A stretch of DNA of 64,000 bases from Bacillus sp. EB01 (GTDB lineage: Bacteria > Bacillota > Bacilli > Bacillales > Cytobacillaceae). The notes under the pieces were generated by a model, which saw only the letters and a list, made by a program, of their open reading frames with translations, made no database searches and was not told where the DNA came from. The stretch lies in contig NZ_HG964497.1 in assembly GCF_000613125.1 (NCBI RefSeq), positions 3,727,037-3,791,036 of the forward strand, given 5' to 3'. Below are positions 24,576-32,330 of the stretch, in pieces (positions within the stretch are counted from its first letter, which is position 1; the number at the start of each line of letters is the position of its first letter). Made by a program: the position numbers and the translations under genes.

Positions 24576-25493
24576 TTAAAAACCATTTATTAATGAGATT
24601 ACCACTGGTCCAAGAAGAACAATAAATAAACTTGGGAAAATAAACAAAACTAGGGGAAACAACATCTTGATAGGTGCCTTCATGGCAGCCTCTTCAGCTC
24701 TTTGCTTCCTTTGCTCACGCACCTCGACGGATTGGGCACGTAGGACCTGGACCATCCCTATCCCAAGTTTTTCAGCCTGGAGAATGCTGCTAATGAAGTT
24801 TTTTACCGCATCTACGCCTTCGAGTCTGTCCTTAATGCCGCCTAAAGCTTCTCGGCGGACTTTTCCAAGTCTCATTTCCTCTAATGAACGTTGGAATTCA
24901 TCAGCAAGGACACCCTCTTTTTTGGACACGAGCTTGCTGATAGCGGCGTCAAATCCCAAGCCGGCTTCTAGGCTAACTGTCAGCAGGTCTAGCGTATCAG
25001 GCAGCTCCTTCAGTGCCTGTTTTTCCCGCACCTTTGTTTTTTGCTTTAGGTAAAAATGTGGCAAAATCGTCCCAAATGTCAGCCCAAAAACTACCGCAAA
25101 GAAAATTGCTGATGAACCGAGTCTCAACAAGGCCGCGTATCCTGCAAAAACACCTGGAAGTATTACAGCCGAACCTGCCTGGAAAAGACGAAAATCAATC
25201 GGCATCATGCCAAATGGGTTGCCAGCACGCTGAAGCTTTAATTCCAGCTTTGCCTCTTTTTCCCCAGGCATTCTCTTTTTAAAGCTCTTTTTAAAATCAT
25301 TTACTACGGGCTTAAAAAATCGCTGGTAAAAGGAAATTTGTTCTTCTTTTTCCTTACCAGGATCCTTATCGTCTTGATTTCTGGTAATATAGACCGATAC
25401 ACGTTTTTCCACAGTTGATTTTTTATTTGTTTTGCCCATAAATAAGCTTAAAACAAAGAGCGAAATCGTCAGAAAAAATGTTAGATAAATCAA
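24576..25493 (-). CDS. tadC: Tad pilus platform protein, TadC type
   Basis: This 305-residue type II secretion F-family membrane protein has an N-terminal helix (LTFFLTISLFVLSLFMG), a middle helix pair (about 105-150) and the GspF core (DTLDLLTVSLEAGLGFDAAI; ILQAEKLGIGMVQVLRAQS). A C-terminal helix (LVLFIFPSLFIVLLGPVVI) follows. With TadB it forms the inner-membrane platform that the TadA ATPase drives during pilus assembly. It is the last gene of the operon, three bases after TadB. Confidence 0.88.
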   Translation of the reverse strand: MIYLTFFLTISLFVLSLFMGKTNKKSTVEKRVSVYITRNQDDKDPGKEKEEQISFYQRFFKPVVNDFKKSFKKRMPGEKEAKLELKLQRAGNPFGMMPIDFRLFQAGSAVILPGVFAGYAALLRLGSSAIFFAVVFGLTFGTILPHFYLKQKTKVREKQALKELPDTLDLLTVSLEAGLGFDAAISKLVSKKEGVLADEFQRSLEEMRLGKVRREALGGIKDRLEGVDAVKNFISSILQAEKLGIGMVQVLRAQSVEVREQRKQRAEEAAMKAPIKMLFPLVLFIFPSLFIVLLGPVVISLINGF

Positions 25494-25496
25494 CCA

Positions 25497-26465
25497 TTAC
25501 ACCTCAATCTGCGTTATTTTCCTAATCAAAATGAAGCCAATAACGCCTGAAGTAACTCCAGCCGCTACCATTCCGATCCCGACTGGATGAGTAAATAAAG
25601 GTGAAATAAAATCTGGCTGAATAAAATAAAGGACTATACCAAGAAAAAGCGGGAGCAAGGCGATGACCATTCCTGACATTCGCCCTTGGGCTGTCAGGGT
25701 TTTAATTTGGCGCTGAATTTTGGTCCGGTCTCTAATTGTTTCAACAATTTTCTCCAGGACTGTTGCCAGATTCCCGCCAACCTGTCGTTGAATAAGAATG
25801 GCTTGAATCATCAAATCCAAATCATCACTCGGCATGCGTTCCTTTAGTTCATTAAGAGCCTCTTCGACACTACTTCCGTATTGCATGGATTTTATAACCG
25901 ATTCAATTTCTTCTTTGATGGGTGAATCGGATTCCTCCGCAACAGATTTCAGTGCCTGTGGGAAACTGAAACCCGCTCTTAATGAACCGATTATTGTCGA
26001 AATCATATCGGCAAGTCCTTCATTAAACTTCTCCACTCGCTCTTTTTCTTTCTTTTTCAAAATAAAACCTGGCAATAAATAACCCGCGATTCCCCCGGGG
26101 ACTGCACATAACCAATGAGTGAACAATAGAACCATCAAAATCCCGAAAAAACCAGTCGCTATCCATTGGAAAGTAACATATTCATCAGGCTTTAGGGGCA
26201 CTCCTGACCTCGCAAGCATCGTTTCGAGTTTACTATTTTTCTTTTTCGTCACAAACCTTTTTGTGAGATTTTTGCGGGCTGCCGCATAGCGTGCAAACAA
26301 GTCAATATCATTATCGTCCACTTCAACCTTCTCAGGTGAAGCCAAATACCTTTCCATCCTTTTTTCAATCTTCTGGCTGCGGGAAAAAAAACTAGATAAA
26401 ACTGCGTAGAACATTAAAAAGGAAGAACAGAGTATAAGTGCCAGGAAAATAAGCTTCATAGTCAA
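25497..26465 (-). CDS. tadB: Tad pilus platform protein, TadB type
   Basis: This 322-residue protein has an N-terminal helix, a central helix pair (about 105-150) and the GspF domain (LADMISTIIGSLRAGFSFPQ; QRQVGGNLATVLEKIVETIR). C-terminal helices (MVIALLPLFLGIVLYF; GIGMVAAGVTSGVIGFILI) end the chain. It is the partner of TadC and overlaps the end of the ATPase gene by four bases (ATGA), which shows tight translational coupling. Confidence 0.88.
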   Translation of the reverse strand: MTMKLIFLALILCSSFLMFYAVLSSFFSRSQKIEKRMERYLASPEKVEVDDNDIDLFARYAAARKNLTKRFVTKKKNSKLETMLARSGVPLKPDEYVTFQWIATGFFGILMVLLFTHWLCAVPGGIAGYLLPGFILKKKEKERVEKFNEGLADMISTIIGSLRAGFSFPQALKSVAEESDSPIKEEIESVIKSMQYGSSVEEALNELKERMPSDDLDLMIQAILIQRQVGGNLATVLEKIVETIRDRTKIQRQIKTLTAQGRMSGMVIALLPLFLGIVLYFIQPDFISPLFTHPVGIGMVAAGVTSGVIGFILIRKITQIEV

Positions 26466-27892
26466 TCCTCCCTTTCAATGAAGACATTAGGAGGAATGTG
26501 AATCCCTGAATTCTCAAGCCGTTCATAAAACTTAGGGCGCACGCCAGTCGGCACAAGCCTTCCGACATACTTTCCGGCTTCATTTAATCCGGTCTGTTCA
26601 TATACAAAGATGTCCTGTAGAACAATGACGTCTCCTTCCATCCCCTGAACCTCAGTGATATTGGTTATTTTTCTTGAGCCGTCCTTTAGCCGGGACTGCT
26701 GGATGATGACATCGAGTGCTCCCGAGATTTGTTCGCGGATCGCTTTGATAGGAAGTTCAACTCCACCGAGCAGCACCATGGTTTCTAACCTGGAAATCAT
26801 ATCTCTTGGCGAATTGGAATGGCCGGTTGCCAATGAACCATCATGGCCAGTATTCATTGCTTGGAGCATGTCCAATGCTTCCGCGCCCCTGACCTCCCCG
26901 ATGACGACACGGTCGGGCCTCATCCGGAGAGAATTCCGGACAAGATCGCGTATTGTAATGGCGCCTTTACCTTCTATATTGGGCGGTCTAGACTCAAGTG
27001 AAACAACATGGTCCTGGCCAAGCTGTAGTTCAGCCGCATCCTCAATAGTAACAATACGCTCGTCATTCGGAATAAAATTCGAAAGTACGTTGAGCGTTGT
27101 CGTTTTACCTGACCCTGTTCCTCCACTTACGAAAATGTTCAGCCTCGCTTTTACGCAAGCATCAAGAAAAATTGCCATCTCCTTCGTGATTGTTCCAAAA
27201 TTAATCAAGTCTTCAATTTGAAAAGGGTCTTTTGAGAACTTACGGATTGTGATTGTCGGGCCGTTCAATGCTAGAGGAGGAATGATTGCATTTACCCTTG
27301 ACCCGTCCGGAAGCCTTGCATCAACCATCGGTGAACTCTCATCAATCCTTCTGCCGATTGGGGCAACAATTTTTTCAATAACGTTCATGACATGCTCATT
27401 ATCGCGAAAAGTAATGTCTGTCAGGATTAGCTTCCCTTTTCTTTCACAGTAAACCTGATTGGGTCCATTTACCATCACTTCCGAAACTTCTTCATCCAGG
27501 AGGAGGGGATTGATCGGGCCAAATCCTGTAAGGTCATTGATCAATTCTTCCACAACTAACTTACGGTCAACGATTCCCCGGAAAGAATCATCATCTTTAA
27601 TAGCCTCCAGCGCCATTCCATCCAACTTTGGAATGATAACCTCAACTTCTTCATCCTTCAGTTCCTGAAGAATGCGTTTATGAAGGATACTTTTTAATTC
27701 CTGTTGTTTGTCCGCCTGCTTCTTGCGGATTGGTTGAATTGCATGCTCTCTGGGAAGTTCAATGGTTTTATGATTTTCTAATATTTCGGTCTTCATGGCC
27801 GGGATTGATGAATTGGAGGTCTCCATTGGCTGAGGCCCGAGATCGAATGGAGCTGGATTATTTTTTTGATTAATACGATCCAGAAGCTTCAT
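26462..27892 (-). CDS. tadA: Tad pilus assembly ATPase, TadA/CpaF type
   Basis: This 476-residue secretion ATPase has an N-terminal extension (about 1-100), an N-terminal domain with EEVSEVMVNGPNQVYCE and a RecA-like domain. The Walker A motif (SGGTGSGKTTTLN) is at about 258-270, the Asp-box is ERIVTIEDAAELQL and the Walker B region is RPDRVVIGEVRGAEALDML. It hydrolyses ATP at the cytoplasmic face to drive Flp pilus assembly. It overlaps the TadZ-type gene by four bases. Confidence 0.92.
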   Translation of the reverse strand: MKLLDRINQKNNPAPFDLGPQPMETSNSSIPAMKTEILENHKTIELPREHAIQPIRKKQADKQQELKSILHKRILQELKDEEVEVIIPKLDGMALEAIKDDDSFRGIVDRKLVVEELINDLTGFGPINPLLLDEEVSEVMVNGPNQVYCERKGKLILTDITFRDNEHVMNVIEKIVAPIGRRIDESSPMVDARLPDGSRVNAIIPPLALNGPTITIRKFSKDPFQIEDLINFGTITKEMAIFLDACVKARLNIFVSGGTGSGKTTTLNVLSNFIPNDERIVTIEDAAELQLGQDHVVSLESRPPNIEGKGAITIRDLVRNSLRMRPDRVVIGEVRGAEALDMLQAMNTGHDGSLATGHSNSPRDMISRLETMVLLGGVELPIKAIREQISGALDVIIQQSRLKDGSRKITNITEVQGMEGDVIVLQDIFVYEQTGLNEAGKYVGRLVPTGVRPKFYERLENSGIHIPPNVFIERED

Positions 27893-28722
27893 TTAGCTGT
27901 TCCCCCTTTTTTTCTCCAAGGAAATATCGAAATTGATTTTCCCTTTTTCTTAATAGCTGTACCGGAATCATTGGATCCGATTATTTCAGCCATTTTAAAA
28001 ATGGATTTCGCAATCTCCGATTTGGAATGGCTTATAACAAAGGGGGTTCCCATATTCAATGATTTAGAACAAATTTGAAAATCATTCGGAATATAAATAG
28101 GCGCCTCTTCACCTAGAATTTTAGCTCCGTCCTCTGCTTTAATGACACTCTCCATATTAGCCCTGTTCAGAACAACTCTCACTTTGTCGCGCAAACCGAG
28201 GATGCCGAGTGTTTCCAGTAAGAGCTTCGTGTTCTTCATCGCTGCCATCTCGAGAGTGGCAATGACTAGGATTTCATCTGCTTTCTCAATCAGATTCAGC
28301 GTCTGCTCATTTAAACCGGCTCCTGTGTCACATACAACAAAATCGTTTCTACTTAAAAGAAAATCCACCATTTTTGAAACTGATTCCTTTGTAAGAAGAT
28401 CAGCAAATTCAGGACGGTCGGGTGCCGGAAGAACACGTACCCCGCTGGTATGTCTAGTCATGTATTCCTCTAACCTGTGTTCATCGAGGGAAGCGATACT
28501 TTCCACAGCCTCCTTAATTGTAAAGCTATGCTGGAGGTCCATCGCAAGGGACACATCGCCGAACTGGAAATCACCATCGAGAATGGCGACAGTATTGTTC
28601 CCTTTAGATAATGATACGGCTAGATTGACTGAAAGGATTGTACGGCCGATACCACCCTTTGCACTACAAACGGCTATCATCCTGCCATGGGCTCCCGGAG
28701 AGTTTCTTTCTAAAGTTGTCAT
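27889..28722 (-). CDS. tadZ: TadZ/CpaE-like MinD/ParA-family ATPase
   Basis: The product is 277 residues from ATG 28722 (MTTLERNSPGAHG), preceded by GGGAGGGTAGAGAAA. An upstream TTG is less likely. It has a deviant Walker A (CSAKGGIGRTILSVNLA, Arg in place of the usual Lys before Thr), the ILDGDFQFGDVSLAMDL segment and CDTGAGLNEQ. It lacks the long N-terminal receiver domain of CpaE, so it is a short form. In other systems TadZ locates the pilus machine, and a positioning role is inferred here. Confidence 0.82.
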   Translation of the reverse strand: MTTLERNSPGAHGRMIAVCSAKGGIGRTILSVNLAVSLSKGNNTVAILDGDFQFGDVSLAMDLQHSFTIKEAVESIASLDEHRLEEYMTRHTSGVRVLPAPDRPEFADLLTKESVSKMVDFLLSRNDFVVCDTGAGLNEQTLNLIEKADEILVIATLEMAAMKNTKLLLETLGILGLRDKVRVVLNRANMESVIKAEDGAKILGEEAPIYIPNDFQICSKSLNMGTPFVISHSKSEIAKSIFKMAEIIGSNDSGTAIKKKGKSISIFPWRKKGGTAK

Positions 28723-28758
28723 TTTCTCTACCCTCCCATTAAAATGATTACCAATCAA

Positions 28759-29490
28759 TTAGCCTTCATTTTCATTCTCCAAAGGGCTTCCGTCGTCGTT
28801 CATTGCCGGCCGTGTATGAAGGATAAAGTGTATTTTTCCTTCTTCCGAAGAATTGATAAGGTTAAATGCATCGTCCGGTTTTAATTCTAACGTAACCGTT
28901 GTATATTCCTCAGGCTGTTCTCCCTCTTTTTTCTCTTCCTCTGGAATGATCAATTTACGACCAACTGCAAGGACCCTTGCATTTTTCAGAAGCACTTTCG
29001 TATTTACTTTTGGTTTATCAGCTTTTGCTTCCTTATCCTCTTTGGAAAAAATGACATCGACTCTGTCTTCAGCTTCAATCAGATTGGATACGGATTGAGG
29101 AAGATTTACCGAAACAGCAACCGCCCGATAGCCTTCCCTTACTTTACGGGATACATATACGGTTTCATCCTTTTGCGAAAGGAGGCGGTGGGCGAGGATC
29201 GGTTCGCCTTTGTCAATTTTGGCCCCCGCCAGCTTCCCTTCCGCTTCCGAAACCGTTTTTAGCGGCTGCCAAGTTACACTTTGCTGAGGCACTTCTACAA
29301 CCTCAAGTTTCTCAGCTGTAATTTTCTCATTTTTATTGATGATATCCTTTGCAACAAGTATTTCTTCCATTGGTACAGAAGCTCCTGAAGCCGTTTCCTG
29401 TGTTTCATACTTGGACATGTATTGAAAAAATAATGCTGTCGTGATAACGCCCATCACGAGAGACAGCAGCATGATTGTTTTTGAACGCAT
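28759..29490 (-). CDS. cpaB: CpaB/RcpC-like Flp pilus assembly protein with SAF domain
   Basis: This 243-residue protein has one N-terminal membrane helix (IMLLSLVMGVITTALFFQYM). Its SAF domain (about 40-110; EEILVAKDIINKNEKITAEKL, then GEPILAHRLL) is followed by the RcpC/CpaB domain (REGYRAVAVSVNLPQSVSNL). The C-terminal tail is acidic. In Gram-negative bacteria this partners the secretin. No secretin is needed or seen here, so it probably acts in the wall or membrane as a pilus-associated factor. Confidence 0.85.
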   Translation of the reverse strand: MRSKTIMLLSLVMGVITTALFFQYMSKYETQETASGASVPMEEILVAKDIINKNEKITAEKLEVVEVPQQSVTWQPLKTVSEAEGKLAGAKIDKGEPILAHRLLSQKDETVYVSRKVREGYRAVAVSVNLPQSVSNLIEAEDRVDVIFSKEDKEAKADKPKVNTKVLLKNARVLAVGRKLIIPEEEKKEGEQPEEYTTVTLELKPDDAFNLINSSEEGKIHFILHTRPAMNDDGSPLENENEG

Positions 29491-29500
29491 TTTCTCTCAC

Positions 29501-30406
29501 CTACTCTGTTAACCGGATGATATAAGCACCTTTATCTAGGCTTCCTACTTCAGAAAAACCTGTACCTGCTCTTTTTATGAACATGCCGGTGATGGATGTG
29601 TCATTGCTACTCATTGGCTGTGTAATATAGAAATATGCAAAACCAGTGACCTGTACAGCTTTCAGCTGGTTGGAAGTTTTATCGTACTCTTTATAGACAG
29701 GGATAAGAATAATTCGGGAACAATTTCTTTCACTTACATCTTCAGGGAGGTAAGTACACCCTTTGACCAGTTCATTGACGACTGATATTGTTTTCCCGGC
29801 AATATTACCGGTTTCCGTGTTTAGAATAGCCCCAACTTTAATTTCATCCCTGTAACCATATTGGAGATTTTCTTCATATGTCCTCGCACCCGGTCCACCT
29901 AGAGCCAGGATCCCAAAGTTTCCGCTTGAAACACCCGTTTCATCTGTTTTTAATTTATATTCTTTATAGTATTCAAGAGGGACTCTCTCATCGATGCCAA
30001 GCGGGGCAGCACCTACAGCCCTGCCCATCGGTGCAATTGAGGCCGCAGCGGCCGCTTTTACATCCACAGCTTGAAAGCCCAAAAGCCCTGCAAACGATAA
30101 TGGCATTCTTTTTGATAGATTTACTTGCACTTTCTTTTTCTCCAGAATTGCCAAGCCTTCTAAAGAATCTGGTTCTTTATGGGAAGTTAAAATATTGTTT
30201 ACAACCTTTGTTACCTTTTCTTCAGTATTCGTTAACTCCTGCGCCCCTGACAAAGCTGCTGCATTCGCGACTTTTTGGAGTTTGCTTTTTGTCATATACA
30301 GCATGCTACCGTCAATTGCAAGCCCGGTTATACAAAGCAAAGCTACCATTGAGAGCGCTACAAGAACAATCGCACTTCCTTTTTCGTCCCTGCGAAATTT
30401 TCTCAT
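29501..30406 (-). CDS. tadG: TadG-like pilus assembly protein
   Basis: This 301-residue protein has an N-terminal pilin-like helix (RRDEKGSAIVLVALSMVALLCITGLAIDGS) that matches the TadG-like N-terminal (Flp assembly) domain. KLQKVANAAALSGAQEL is also typical. The C-terminal exported part has two Cys (KGCTYLPEDVSERNC) that could form a disulfide. In Tad systems TadG is a minor pilin-like or anchoring component. It sits between cpaB (10-base gap) and tadE (14-base gap). Confidence 0.82.
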   Translation of the reverse strand: MRKFRRDEKGSAIVLVALSMVALLCITGLAIDGSMLYMTKSKLQKVANAAALSGAQELTNTEEKVTKVVNNILTSHKEPDSLEGLAILEKKKVQVNLSKRMPLSFAGLLGFQAVDVKAAAAASIAPMGRAVGAAPLGIDERVPLEYYKEYKLKTDETGVSSGNFGILALGGPGARTYEENLQYGYRDEIKVGAILNTETGNIAGKTISVVNELVKGCTYLPEDVSERNCSRIILIPVYKEYDKTSNQLKAVQVTGFAYFYITQPMSSNDTSITGMFIKRAGTGFSEVGSLDKGAYIIRLTE

Positions 30407-30420
30407 CTCTGTATCCCTCC

Positions 30421-30840
30421 TTACTCAACCCGGATCGTTGACTCTGTTTCGGCATATAACGGAGATGGGAAGAGGCTTGATAATAAAGGAGTGTATAACT
30501 TTAAAGGATATTTAAGCTTAACTTTTATATAATTCCCTGATTTTCCTTTTGTACCAGGCGCAACTGCAACTGGTTGTAAGGTGTTATCCGAAAGATAAGA
30601 GATTTCGACAATCAGCTTGCTGGAATCTCCAAGATGTACATAGTTTTTGGCAAATGAAGTGATTTCGACATCCGTCTTGCCAAGACCGCCCTTCCTGACA
30701 GTTTCCTGGGCTGCCATTTGAAGATGGGCATAGGAATACGTGACACGGCCAAAATCAAGAATTCCTACAATTAACAGCAACAAAAGGGGCAAAACAAGCG
30801 CTGTTTCCACTAAGGATTGGCCGCGCTCATCCTTTCTCAT
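30421..30840 (-). CDS. tadE: TadE-like minor pseudopilin
   Basis: This 139-residue protein has the N-terminus MRKDERGQSLVETALVLPLLLLL, the TadE signature: a short basic leader, Gly, then a hydrophobic helix with Glu at +5 of the mature protein. The prepilin peptidase encoded next would process it. Its beginning overlaps the end of the peptidase gene by four bases. Confidence 0.88.
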   Translation of the reverse strand: MRKDERGQSLVETALVLPLLLLLIVGILDFGRVTYSYAHLQMAAQETVRKGGLGKTDVEITSFAKNYVHLGDSSKLIVEISYLSDNTLQPVAVAPGTKGKSGNYIKVKLKYPLKLYTPLLSSLFPSPLYAETESTIRVE

Positions 30841-31352
30841 AGCAGCATTCCTGCCCGGAAGAATTGTATGACTGCCCCTGCTGCGATCGCTACACCGTAT
30901 GGGTAGGTAGCTTTCATGGAATCTTTATCAATCAGAACAGGAATCTTAAAACCATTTACTCTCCCTATTAGTGAAAAGAACAGGTTTTTTATCAACTGTT
31001 TAGGGCTTTTTTTAACTGCAATAATTAGCAGAGCGAATAGTCCTCCTGCAATTGCCATGTAAATAGCAGACAATGCCACAAACTTAGCCCCCATCAGCGC
31101 GCCAATCACTGCAAGCAATTTGACATCCCCGGCGCCCATCCCTCCCATCAAGTACGGGATCAACAAAATTCCGAAACCAACAAACGTTCCAAACAAGGCC
31201 ATTTCAAGCCCGTCCCATCCGCTTGTTATCCCGTTTACCAGGAAGGCAATTATTAAGAAAGGCAAAAGAACCTTATTATAAATCCTGCGCTCTCTAATAT
31301 CAGTGATTGTACAAATTAGCAGAAGCAGGAAAAGCAAAATCGCTTGAATCAT
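30837..31352 (-). CDS. tadV: Prepilin peptidase, A24A family (TadV/CpaA)
   Basis: The product is 171 residues from ATG 31352 (MIQAILLFLLLLICTITDIR) behind AGAGGG. The frame stays open for 62 codons upstream but runs through the pilin terminator, so the long start is rejected. It is a polytopic membrane protease with the two catalytic Asp motifs TDIRERRIYN and GMGAGDVKLLA. It cleaves the leaders of Flp and TadE. It lacks the N-methyltransferase domain, as expected for TadV. Confidence 0.88.
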   Translation of the reverse strand: MIQAILLFLLLLICTITDIRERRIYNKVLLPFLIIAFLVNGITSGWDGLEMALFGTFVGFGILLIPYLMGGMGAGDVKLLAVIGALMGAKFVALSAIYMAIAGGLFALLIIAVKKSPKQLIKNLFFSLIGRVNGFKIPVLIDKDSMKATYPYGVAIAAGAVIQFFRAGMLL

Positions 31353-31390
31353 AGGAAACCCTCTTTTCTTGCAGATGCTTTGATTTAAAA

Positions 31391-31422
31391 AAGCCCCACG
31401 TTTTAAAACAAACGCAAGGCTT
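31391..31422 (-). terminator. Hairpin between the Flp pilin gene and tadV
   Basis: On the minus strand AAGCC...CGTTT pairs with AAACG...GGCTT, followed by TTTTTT. It lies 58 bases after the pilin stop and is likely a leaky terminator, letting pilin message exceed that of the assembly genes. Confidence 0.65.
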
Positions 31423-31479
31423 TTCCTTTTAACAACAACAAAAACATTCGAATTGAAAATATAGAAAGAGATTTCTTTA

Positions 31480-31665
31480 TTACTCAGTCCTAGTATCTGC
31501 ATCTGTAAGAGCAGTTTTGGCATCTTCAAATAGATCAACTATTTTTTCTCTAAAACCAACTAGTACAGCAACAACACCCAGCGCAATTACACCCAAAACC
31601 AAACCGTACTCAGTCATACCTTGTCCTTGTTCTTCTGTAAGCAATGCTTTCATTTTTTTCATCAT
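31480..31665 (-). CDS. flp: Flp family type IVb pilin
   Basis: This pilin has 61 residues from ATG 31665, chosen for its nine-base spacing to GGGAG. It has a short basic leader (MMKKMKALLTEEQG), a predicted cleavage after Gly, then QGMTEYGLVLGVIALGVVAVL. The Glu-Tyr pair sits at +5/+6 of the mature protein, the Flp hallmark. The remaining 25 residues are charged. This is the structural subunit of the pilus. Confidence 0.92.
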   Translation of the reverse strand: MMKKMKALLTEEQGQGMTEYGLVLGVIALGVVAVLVGFREKIVDLFEDAKTALTDADTRTE

Positions 31666-31698
31666 TCTCAAAAACTCCCTTTTTAGTTATATTTGTAA

Positions 31699-32040
31699 TT
31701 AATTAATAGATAAATAATGACCAACTTTCAGTTCTGCATTCCGTATTGTCCCGGATGGAAGCTCGAGCACCGATTTTGATTTTCGGTGTACTTTTCCAAT
31801 CTTTGCAGGATTCATGTCTTCATCCAGGCCGACTATTTCGTTGTTTCCGTCCAAATACACAACGTCGATTGGATATTTCATGAAGAATGTGTGGATCGAT
31901 TGGCAGGGCTTGATCAACAGGCCGTGTCCTGCTGGCAGATTTTTTGTAAACATCAGCCCCTTCAGCCTTTTGAAAAAGCTATCGGCGCATCCAATGTTGT
32001 CTGCAATTTCCGTCCCGTTCGACAGATTCACGACCTTCAA
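31699..32040 (-). CDS. DUF192 family protein at the head of the Tad operon
   Basis: The product is 113 residues from TTG 32040, eight bases after GGAGG. A GTG three codons upstream overlaps that site and is rejected. It contains RLKGLMFTKNLPAGHGLLI, SIHTFFMKYPIDVVYLD, and the ending LELPSGTIRNAELKVGHYL, all typical of DUF192, a small beta-barrel of unknown function. Members are often secreted; this one has no signal peptide. It is the first gene after the riboswitch and lies 34 bases before the pilin, so it belongs to the pilus operon. Confidence 0.85.
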   Translation of the reverse strand: MKVVNLSNGTEIADNIGCADSFFKRLKGLMFTKNLPAGHGLLIKPCQSIHTFFMKYPIDVVYLDGNNEIVGLDEDMNPAKIGKVHRKSKSVLELPSGTIRNAELKVGHYLSIN

Positions 32041-32055
32041 TATTTTCACCTCCGA

Positions 32056-32095
32056 AAAAATAAAATGACCCCGCCTTTACCGAAAGGGGGATCAT
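32056..32095 (-). terminator. Expression-platform terminator of the c-di-GMP riboswitch
   Basis: On the minus strand ATGATCCCCCTTT and AAAGGCGGGGTCAT pair around CGGT, followed by TTTATTTTTT. It ends 15 bases before the first gene's start codon. Its upper stem and loop (complement of 32077-32086) are exactly complementary over 10 bases to the aptamer 3' strand (complement of 32125-32134), giving a competing antiterminator. Confidence 0.8.
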
Positions 32096-32114
32096 GGGAA
32101 GACATACCTATGGT

Positions 32115-32221
32115 GCACCCTGATCTTTCGGTAACTGGCTGGCATAGTACTTAAGTACCTTAGCCCCTTTAGCTTTGCGTCACTGATTTTCATCAGCTTT
32201 GCCTTTATCGAGATACAGTGC
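32115..32221 (-). ncRNA. Cyclic-di-GMP-I (GEMM) riboswitch aptamer
   Basis: Read on the minus strand, the leader shows the conserved GEMM elements in order. These are AAAGGCAAAGC, a GAAA-tetraloop hairpin (CTGAT-GAAA-ATCAG), TGACGCAAAGC, GGGGCTAAGG, a stem-loop of variable length, then ATGCCAGCCAGTTACCG. P1 is formed by GCAC..ATCT-CG and CG..AGAT..GTGC at the two ends. Class I aptamers bind one c-di-GMP between these helices. It lies upstream of the DUF192 and Tad genes on the same strand, followed by an intrinsic terminator. This assignment is from sequence pattern only. Confidence 0.85.
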
Positions 32222-32330
32222 AATTCTTGTCGACTGTTCTCTTACACTCATAGTAAATCGTTTATGGGGGTATTAGAATCAGACTTTTTCACTATTTTTC
32301 AGGAAAAATTACTAGTGAAAAACACCTATT

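Follow-up and report, generated by a model that had tools for sequence, protein, structure and literature searches.

c-di-GMP is usually tied to more adhesion. What, then, should be made of a c-di-GMP aptamer that stands, with a transcription terminator behind it, ahead of a pilus operon: would the ligand turn the genes on, turn them off, or leave them much as they are? The locus lies within a stretch of 64,000 nucleotides from Bacillus sp. EB01 (contig NZ_HG964497.1, positions 3,727,037 to 3,791,036), here called the window. An earlier note, made from the letters alone, took it for an OFF switch on a Tad pilus operon. All of the window features described below are on the minus strand.

The aptamer, at 32127-32213, is the sole Rfam match at the gathering threshold across the 64-kb window. 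The covariance model RF01051 (c-di-GMP-I, or GEMM-I), which the earlier note had proposed as a check, covers it over model positions 1-87 of 87 and scores 88 bits against a gathering threshold of 35 (E 4.6e-16). The GEMM core elements are all present in the order first described: GGCAAAGC (32196-32203); the GAAA-capped hairpin CTGAT-GAAA-ATCAG (32183-32196); TGACGCAAAGC (32172-32182); and ATGCCAGCCAGTTACCG (32129-32145). The Rfam alignment shows a complete conserved pocket (GGC, the GAAA tetraloop, GACGCAAA, and the ACC 3' end) and no P1 helix directly beside it. By covariance model, the leader aptamer belongs to the c-di-GMP-I riboswitches, and ligand binding is predicted. The window aptamer carries G at what we take to be the ligand-discriminating position of the pocket (GGC), where cGAMP types presumably have A. 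Available passages of one paper describe c-AMP-GMP variants as told apart by a pocket position (PMC9481103).

What the aptamer precedes can be read from the genes alone: a Tad locus, arranged as one operon. A Shine-Dalgarno sequence, GGAGGTG (32047-32053), sets the inferred TTG start (32038-32040) of the first gene, which encodes a DUF192 protein (31699-32040; PF02643, 74.3 bits). There follow a 63-aa Flp pilin (31480-31671; Flp_Fap, 20.5 bits, E 4.3e-4, below the Pfam cut-off of 32.2); the TadV prepilin peptidase (30837-31538; Peptidase_A24, 74.9 bits), whose true start is probably further in; TadE (30421-30840; PF07811, 54 bits); a TadG-like Tad protein (29501-30406; PF13400, 43.6 bits); RcpC/CpaB (28759-29490; PF16976, 87.3 bits); a TadZ/CpaE-like ATPase (27889-28758; AAA_31/ParA), called TadZ from its operon position; the TadA/CpaF ATPase (26462-27892; T2SSE, 231.1 bits); and, named by operon order, TadB (25497-26465; T2SSF, 81.5 bits) and TadC (24576-25493; T2SSF, 60.9 bits). 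The operon proteins that were tested include no secretin. Between the listed DUF192 and Flp frames there are 27 nt, which makes a promoter there unlikely, although internal promoters are possible.

The association of leader and operon extends well beyond the window. The leader is present in all eight genomes of the window's genus that were examined, and a survey of the family found a leader match at E <= 0.001 in 152 of 193 genomes, many of them to the aptamer part only. The 55 strongest leader loci (down to 129 bits) all precede Tad genes and are spread over 8 of the family's 25 genera; their first gene encodes DUF192 in 32 (a partial match in L156) and a TadA-type ATPase in 23. Starting from the operon gives the same picture: 32 genomes have a TadZ match with 48% identity or more, a cut that was chosen after the list had been seen and that leaves out the matches at 42% and below. 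In 30 of these the aptamer lies upstream, and contig breaks intervene in the other two. The distance to the TadZ match is roughly 3.4-4.5 kb, on the same contig and strand in 30/30 assessable genomes. Together with the Pfam matches, this linkage bears out the Tad operon as the target first named.

Two of the individual loci deserve mention. In genome G111, one of the 30, the tad-upstream aptamer (L193:4043-4128) was found only by Rfam; its pocket reads AGC, A replacing the G of GGC, which we take to be a mark of cGAMP-responsive variants, and a selenocysteine tRNA (L193:2447-2539) lies about 1.5 kb upstream of it. In G162 (G162:C1:1287098-1287909), TadZ was matched in two adjacent pieces, so the tad locus there may be broken or misassembled.

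Beyond this type of tad locus, 14 of 80 loci were scanned for the aptamer. Among seven Bacillales loci it lies upstream of tad in Fredinandcohnia onubensis, Neobacillus muris, and Bacillus sp. FJAT-27245, and was not found upstream of tad in Alteribacillus, Virgibacillus senegalensis, or Salinicoccus hispanicus; at the seventh, Mesobacillus campisalis (L019), the sequence ahead of tadA is just 1.4 kb long, too short for a judgement. At seven loci from Clostridia and unnamed Firmicutes there was no c-di-GMP-I match (for one of them, L014, the upstream sequence is limited to 1.1 kb). In Fredinandcohnia the locus begins with Flp, and its terminator is unrelated to that of the window; by eye, the terminator loop CUUUCGG can pair with CCGAAA of the aptamer, and at equilibrium the terminator wins both free and bound. 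No clear terminator was seen by eye in the Neobacillus muris leader.

Fifty-four leaders were aligned: the 55 Tad leaders minus L145, with the 3' ends of L132, L138, and L165 set by hand. Aptamer pairing holds in 98.3% of cells, and six pairs have changed on both sides. The leader set apart, L145 (G150:C1:546058-548197), belongs to a tadA-first locus and keeps the aptamer and the 5' hairpin described below, with a Shine-Dalgarno-like sequence right after the aptamer; a terminator was looked for in this leader and none was found. A translational OFF switch was considered for it and found no support: binding does not hide the Shine-Dalgarno sequence (mean unpaired 0.84 bound and 0.68 free).

Transcription probably starts at about 32242-32243, a promoter assignment inferred from a −10-like box, TACTAT (32250-32255), which reads TATgAT in most relatives and is conserved at 87-98% in five of its six positions among 55 upstream regions. 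No σA-like −35 sequence was seen upstream of this box. The 55 sequences do share a block, GtagGATaTT, at −42 to −33 and AAAA at −56 to −53, counted from the 5' hairpin (32275-32298 in the window); conservation is weaker in the window's own genus. The GtagGATaTT block lies near the −35 position and is unlike a σA −35, and it is possibly the site of an activator or of another σ factor.

Directly ahead of the aptamer core, and apparently at the very 5' end of the RNA, is that hairpin, P0 (32210-32241), with arms at 32233-32241 and 32210-32219 (GAGAACAGU/ACUGUAUCUC). In the alignment, 97.1% of its cells are paired, with two-sided change in 2 pairs and 9 cells; the best slid control reaches 61.5%. 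P0 exceeds a probability of 0.5 in 48 of the 54 free full-length ensembles. Its 3' arm has a second possible partner: the strand CTGTATCT (32211-32218) can pair with AGATCAG (32120-32126) behind the aptamer, to form a distal helix, P1'. Here 94.9% of cells are paired. Both sides have changed in 3 pairs and in 24 cells, where slid controls give 5 cells or fewer. In a tree from which the P1' columns were left out, the central P1' pair changed on 13 branches; 11 of these end paired, and three show a simultaneous change on the two sides. The segment described in the earlier note stops short of the P0 5' arm, and P0 and its rivalry with P1' were missed there.

These patterns suggest, with moderate confidence, a strand exchange. 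In the ligand-free leader P0 would hold the 5' flank; alternatively, the flank would join AGAUCAG behind the aptamer as P1', and the exchange may set the switching threshold. There is an appreciable, if smaller, chance that P0 plays no part in switching and simply guards the 5' end of the mRNA, P1' being a by-product of a repeated motif. P0 is energetically dominant, with P1' exceeding 0.5 in none of the 54 free and 4 of the 54 bound full-length ensembles; P1' is thus not energetically favoured and would need ligand. Moreover, the P0 5' arm and the P1' strand are near-repeats, so that the ability of both to pair with one strand comes partly free. Against this, alignment column 64, which is unpaired in P0 as drawn, covaries with the P1' strand (UA 20, AU 17, GU 3, GC 2, unpaired 10, gap 2), and the three same-branch double changes at the central pair also speak for P1' as a helix in its own right. 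In addition, the bound fold of L193, whose 5' flank is different, has a short UCCC/GGGA pairing in the corresponding position.

At the other end of the leader, folds show the intrinsic terminator that had been proposed: a 27-nt stem-loop, GATCCCCCTTT-CGGT-AAAGGCGGGGTC (32067-32093), with a bulged C at 32073, followed by the T tract ATTTTATTTTTT (32055-32066). A simple consensus scan of the window flagged no terminator, probably because of the bulge in this stem; the absence that such a scan would imply is ruled out by the hairpin visible in the folds. Among the 54 leaders, 95.4% of terminator cells are paired, the closing pair has changed on both sides between AU and GC in 11 cells, and each of the loop bases CGGU is kept in 48-54 leaders.

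Part of the aptamer can pair with this terminator. The antiterminator 5' strand, TTACCGAAAG (32125-32134), is the 3' end of the aptamer and the perfect complement of CTTTCGGTAA (32077-32086), which comprises the top of the terminator 5' arm, the loop, and the start of the 3' arm. The earlier note's perfect ten-base complementarity is real and exceeds chance: comparison of the 17-nt aptamer 3'-end strand UUACCGAAAGAUCAGGG with the terminator hairpin gives a Watson-Crick run of 10 nt, and a run of at least 10 nt arose in only 6 of 20,000 shuffles in which stem pairs were permuted and flipped and the loop was permuted, and in 17 of 20,000 when the pyrimidine strand bias was kept. Chance complementarity can accordingly be set aside. 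The run is at least 7 nt long in 50 of the 54 Tad leaders (10 in 31, 9 in 11, 8 in 5, and 7 in 3) and 4-5 nt in the other four; the linker between the complementary strand and the terminator varies in length. The antiterminator helix is paired in 94.6% of cells. Two-sided covariation was found in none of its pairs among the 54 Tad leaders (500 of 500 shuffles score at least as high as observed), so that conservation and complementarity, not covariation, support it.

The earlier note understated the extent of the antiterminator. Its ten-base pairing stands, and a strand of aptamer stem P3 is also used: in the ligand-free minimum-energy fold the helix is longer than 10 nt at both ends, GCC of the P3 3' strand (32137-32139) pairing with GGC in the terminator 3' arm (32073-32075). 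Each of these three pairs occurs in 54/54 leaders (47 GC and 7 GU at the bulge). The terminator bulge base at 32073 is C in 47 leaders and U in 7; in the antiterminator it is matched by a G that never varies. This base, although unpaired in the terminator, is thus a pyrimidine in every aligned leader, and its best explanation would seem to be that it is needed in the antiterminator. In the window leader, AUCA and GGG add upstream antiterminator pairs; the AUCA extension is not general, its pairs being kept in 9, 28, 14, and 43 of the 54 leaders. How much the P3 strand counts can be gauged from the isolated 80-nt stretch from UUACCGAAAG to the T tract, which lacks it: here the terminator prevails (0.76 versus 0.19 for the antiterminator), and single folds give the terminator in three parameter sets and the antiterminator in one. 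The OFF prediction therefore leans on the P3 extension.

The direction of control was examined in ViennaRNA ensembles at 37 °C, for the transcript from the inferred start at 32243 to the T tract; the resulting probabilities describe equilibrium, not kinetics. The bound state was represented by enforcing the aptamer pairs and keeping two ligand-contacting bases unpaired, so its outcome is partly built in. For the ligand-free window leader, the antiterminator has a probability of 0.92 and the terminator one of 0.00, and forcing the terminator costs 3.6 kcal/mol. In the bound state the terminator rises to 0.95, with a free-bound difference of 5.3 kcal/mol. Before the terminator 3' arm has been made, part of the antiterminator still pairs in the bound leader (0.53). 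When the Shine-Dalgarno sequence was included and P0 omitted, the antiterminator fell to 0.78 and the terminator stood at 0.15; the Shine-Dalgarno bases in that fold are transcribed after the switch decision. The window leader plus Shine-Dalgarno sequence does not fold with unusual stability (z −1.28).

The sign follows from the strands themselves. In the one energy model used, the terminator lies outside the aptamer and can coexist with it, and the antiterminator, which takes the aptamer 3' strand, excludes both; this mutual exclusion underlies the OFF direction, which holds in silico as the earlier note had predicted. We consider it likely that the leader is a transcriptional c-di-GMP OFF riboswitch that would gate the Tad pilus operon. 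Without ligand, the aptamer 3' strand (P3 GCC, UUACCGAAAG, and GGG) would pair across the terminator 5' arm, loop, and 3' arm; this antiterminator would form as the terminator emerges, and RNA polymerase would read through. With c-di-GMP bound, P3 and the binding pocket would hold on to the same strand, the terminator GAUCCCCCUUU-CGGU-AAAGGCGGGGUC would fold, and transcription would end in the T tract before the Shine-Dalgarno sequence.

The relatives behave similarly. In 40 of the 54 leaders, which come from 8 genera, binding raises the terminator by more than 0.2, and in none does it lower it; alternative energy parameter sets gave identical outputs in this calculation, which therefore represents one energy model and no test of robustness. 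L013 and L193, the two most divergent of the tad leaders that were folded, have a dominant terminator both free and bound. Indeed, the terminator already exceeds 0.5 without ligand in 11 of the 54 leaders at equilibrium, and this is what would be expected if the aptamer binds c-di-GMP while the operon is hardly regulated, either as a decayed switch or because promoter signals dominate. There is a precedent in Bc1 of B. thuringiensis, which, according to the available text of PMC11218506, binds c-di-GMP and leaves downstream expression unchanged. Such an idle aptamer is unlikely here: 8 genera have preserved the complementary strand together with the loop and bulge of the terminator, although the linker varies in length, and the window leader gives a clean two-state prediction.

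The type IV pilus c-di-GMP riboswitch of C. difficile is an ON switch, and c-di-GMP is usually linked with adhesion. An ON switch, by which c-di-GMP would raise Tad expression, is nonetheless highly improbable in this model: despite the known pilus ON switch pilM of Geobacter (PMC9262584, available part) and reference titles that name a c-di-GMP riboswitch for C. difficile type IV pili, an ON design needs the aptamer 3' strand inside the terminator, whereas in the Tad leader the two are separate and coexist, and binding lowers the terminator in 0/54 leaders. The same procedure does yield the opposite sign where the strands are so arranged. At an ON-type site in the window's own genome (G000:C1:484530), one arm of the terminator is formed by the aptamer 3' strand, and the terminator goes from 0.98 free to 0.32 bound; this reversal indicates no more than that the method does not dictate the sign. 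At another site, 1967311, the terminator stands at 1.00 both free and bound.

A leader related to the predicted OFF-type Tad leader also stands ahead of flagellar operons. Eight further loci (L166-L173) carry a leader of the Tad type and show no Tad match. At all eight, the first two genes encode a 104-aa open reading frame and a glucosaminidase, and FlgB comes next in the six genomes with enough downstream DNA (G127, G142, G148, G151, G152, and G160); in G152, Pfam identifies a basal-body rod pair (FlgB and FlgC by order), FliE, and FliF. The Tad operons and the flagellar operons of these species thus have related leaders, and it is flagellar genes that Cd1 precedes in C. difficile (PMC9262584). 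In L169 and L170, the antiterminator has changed from G-C to A-U on both strands (CCAAAAG/CUUUUGG), and the terminator partner of the changed pair lies in the loop. L166 has the loop change and lacks the matching change on the other strand. L171 has a different terminator together with a matching strand, whose duplex is worth −17.2 kcal/mol, against a median of −8.8 with Tad terminators. The strand has no specificity for its own terminator in L167, L168, L172, and L173: its duplexes there span −14.9 to −16.8, and those with Tad terminators −14.8 to −17.4. (The automatic terminator finder chose the wrong hairpin for L169 and L141; the L169 terminator was read separately.) Another type of c-di-GMP-I leader, at L174, L175, and L177, has an unrelated strong terminator and an open reading frame of about 293-295 aa next, which by eye resembles what we take to be a flagellar switch protein.

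The window's own genome (5.28 Mb, one contig) offers further context. It holds 12 RF01051 matches, two of which score better as the sister family RF03167, and 17 GGDEF-domain matches, so that c-di-GMP signalling is probably present. None of the 12 aptamers lies near flagellin genes; the flgB gene of this genome was not located. Those at G000:C1 1487474, 1486718, and 1525382 (L183, L184) each precede, by eye, a CxxC mini-gene of about 31 codons, one of which was tested and gave no Pfam match; those at 2806100 and 1668890 each precede another mini-gene, of about 50 codons. The ON-type leader at 484530 (L182) precedes a 744-aa protein with a match to the LPXTG anchor (Pfam, 23.4 bits), so that this leader and the Tad leader have opposite predicted signs within one genome. 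The aptamer at G000:C1:1816596 (L188; RF03167, c-di-GMP-I-GGC) precedes a SinI anti-repressor (Pfam SinI, 42.4 bits); a c-di-GMP riboswitch is reported for B. methanolicus sinI in the available passages of PMC4342826.

What would an OFF switch on Tad pili mean? Presumably, the pili serve a motile or first-contact phase. A broader proposal, for and against which we see about equal grounds, is that, within this branch of the Bacillaceae, one OFF-type leader module made up of 5' hairpin, aptamer, antiterminator, and terminator serves both the flgB and the Tad operons, that Tad pili belong to the motile phase and go off with the flagella, and that P0/P1' tunes the threshold. If so, Tad pili would be first-contact organelles that are shut down alongside flagella once cells commit to the surface, and an OFF switch of flagellar-like design, conserved over genera, would group these pili with motility. 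It would also offer a genetic handle on the role of Tad pili in Gram-positives, and the 54 aligned leaders would serve as natural variants for studies of terminator/antiterminator design.

A search of titles, abstracts, and passages, with subscription literature thinly covered, found no published description of a c-di-GMP riboswitch on a Tad operon. The target looks new, and the sign looks unusual for a pilus riboswitch. Three known systems, each as described in the available parts of the papers, provide comparisons. The pilM GEMM riboswitch of Geobacter metallireducens resembles the window leader in its GEMM-type aptamer, its pilus genes, and its transcriptional control; it is an ON switch that responds to cGAMP (PMC9262584), whereas the window leader is predicted to be OFF and has a GGC pocket. 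Bc2, ahead of cap in Bacillus thuringiensis, shares the aptamer class, transcription termination, a surface adhesin as target, and a Bacillus host; it is an ON switch (PMC4933901), again opposite to the sign predicted here. Cd1, from the flgB operon of Clostridioides difficile, is a transcriptional OFF switch whose platform is described as T+H for the terminator and T+A+H for the antiterminator (PMC9262584). The predicted design of the window leader resembles it in aptamer class and OFF type: aptamer and terminator coexist, and a rival antiterminator takes the aptamer 3' strand. Cd1 shows no P1 helix beside the pocket; for the window leader the Rfam alignment has none there, but a distal P1' has covariation in its favour and energy against it. 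The window leader differs in its Tad pilus target and in its conserved P0 and distal P1'; the flgB-linked related leaders that were found belong to other genomes of the family. Finally, in Caulobacter, Tad pili mediate initial reversible adherence, and a c-di-GMP spike marks the next step (PMC13234629, in the passages available). By analogy, a shut-off of Tad expression at high c-di-GMP would fit this order of events.
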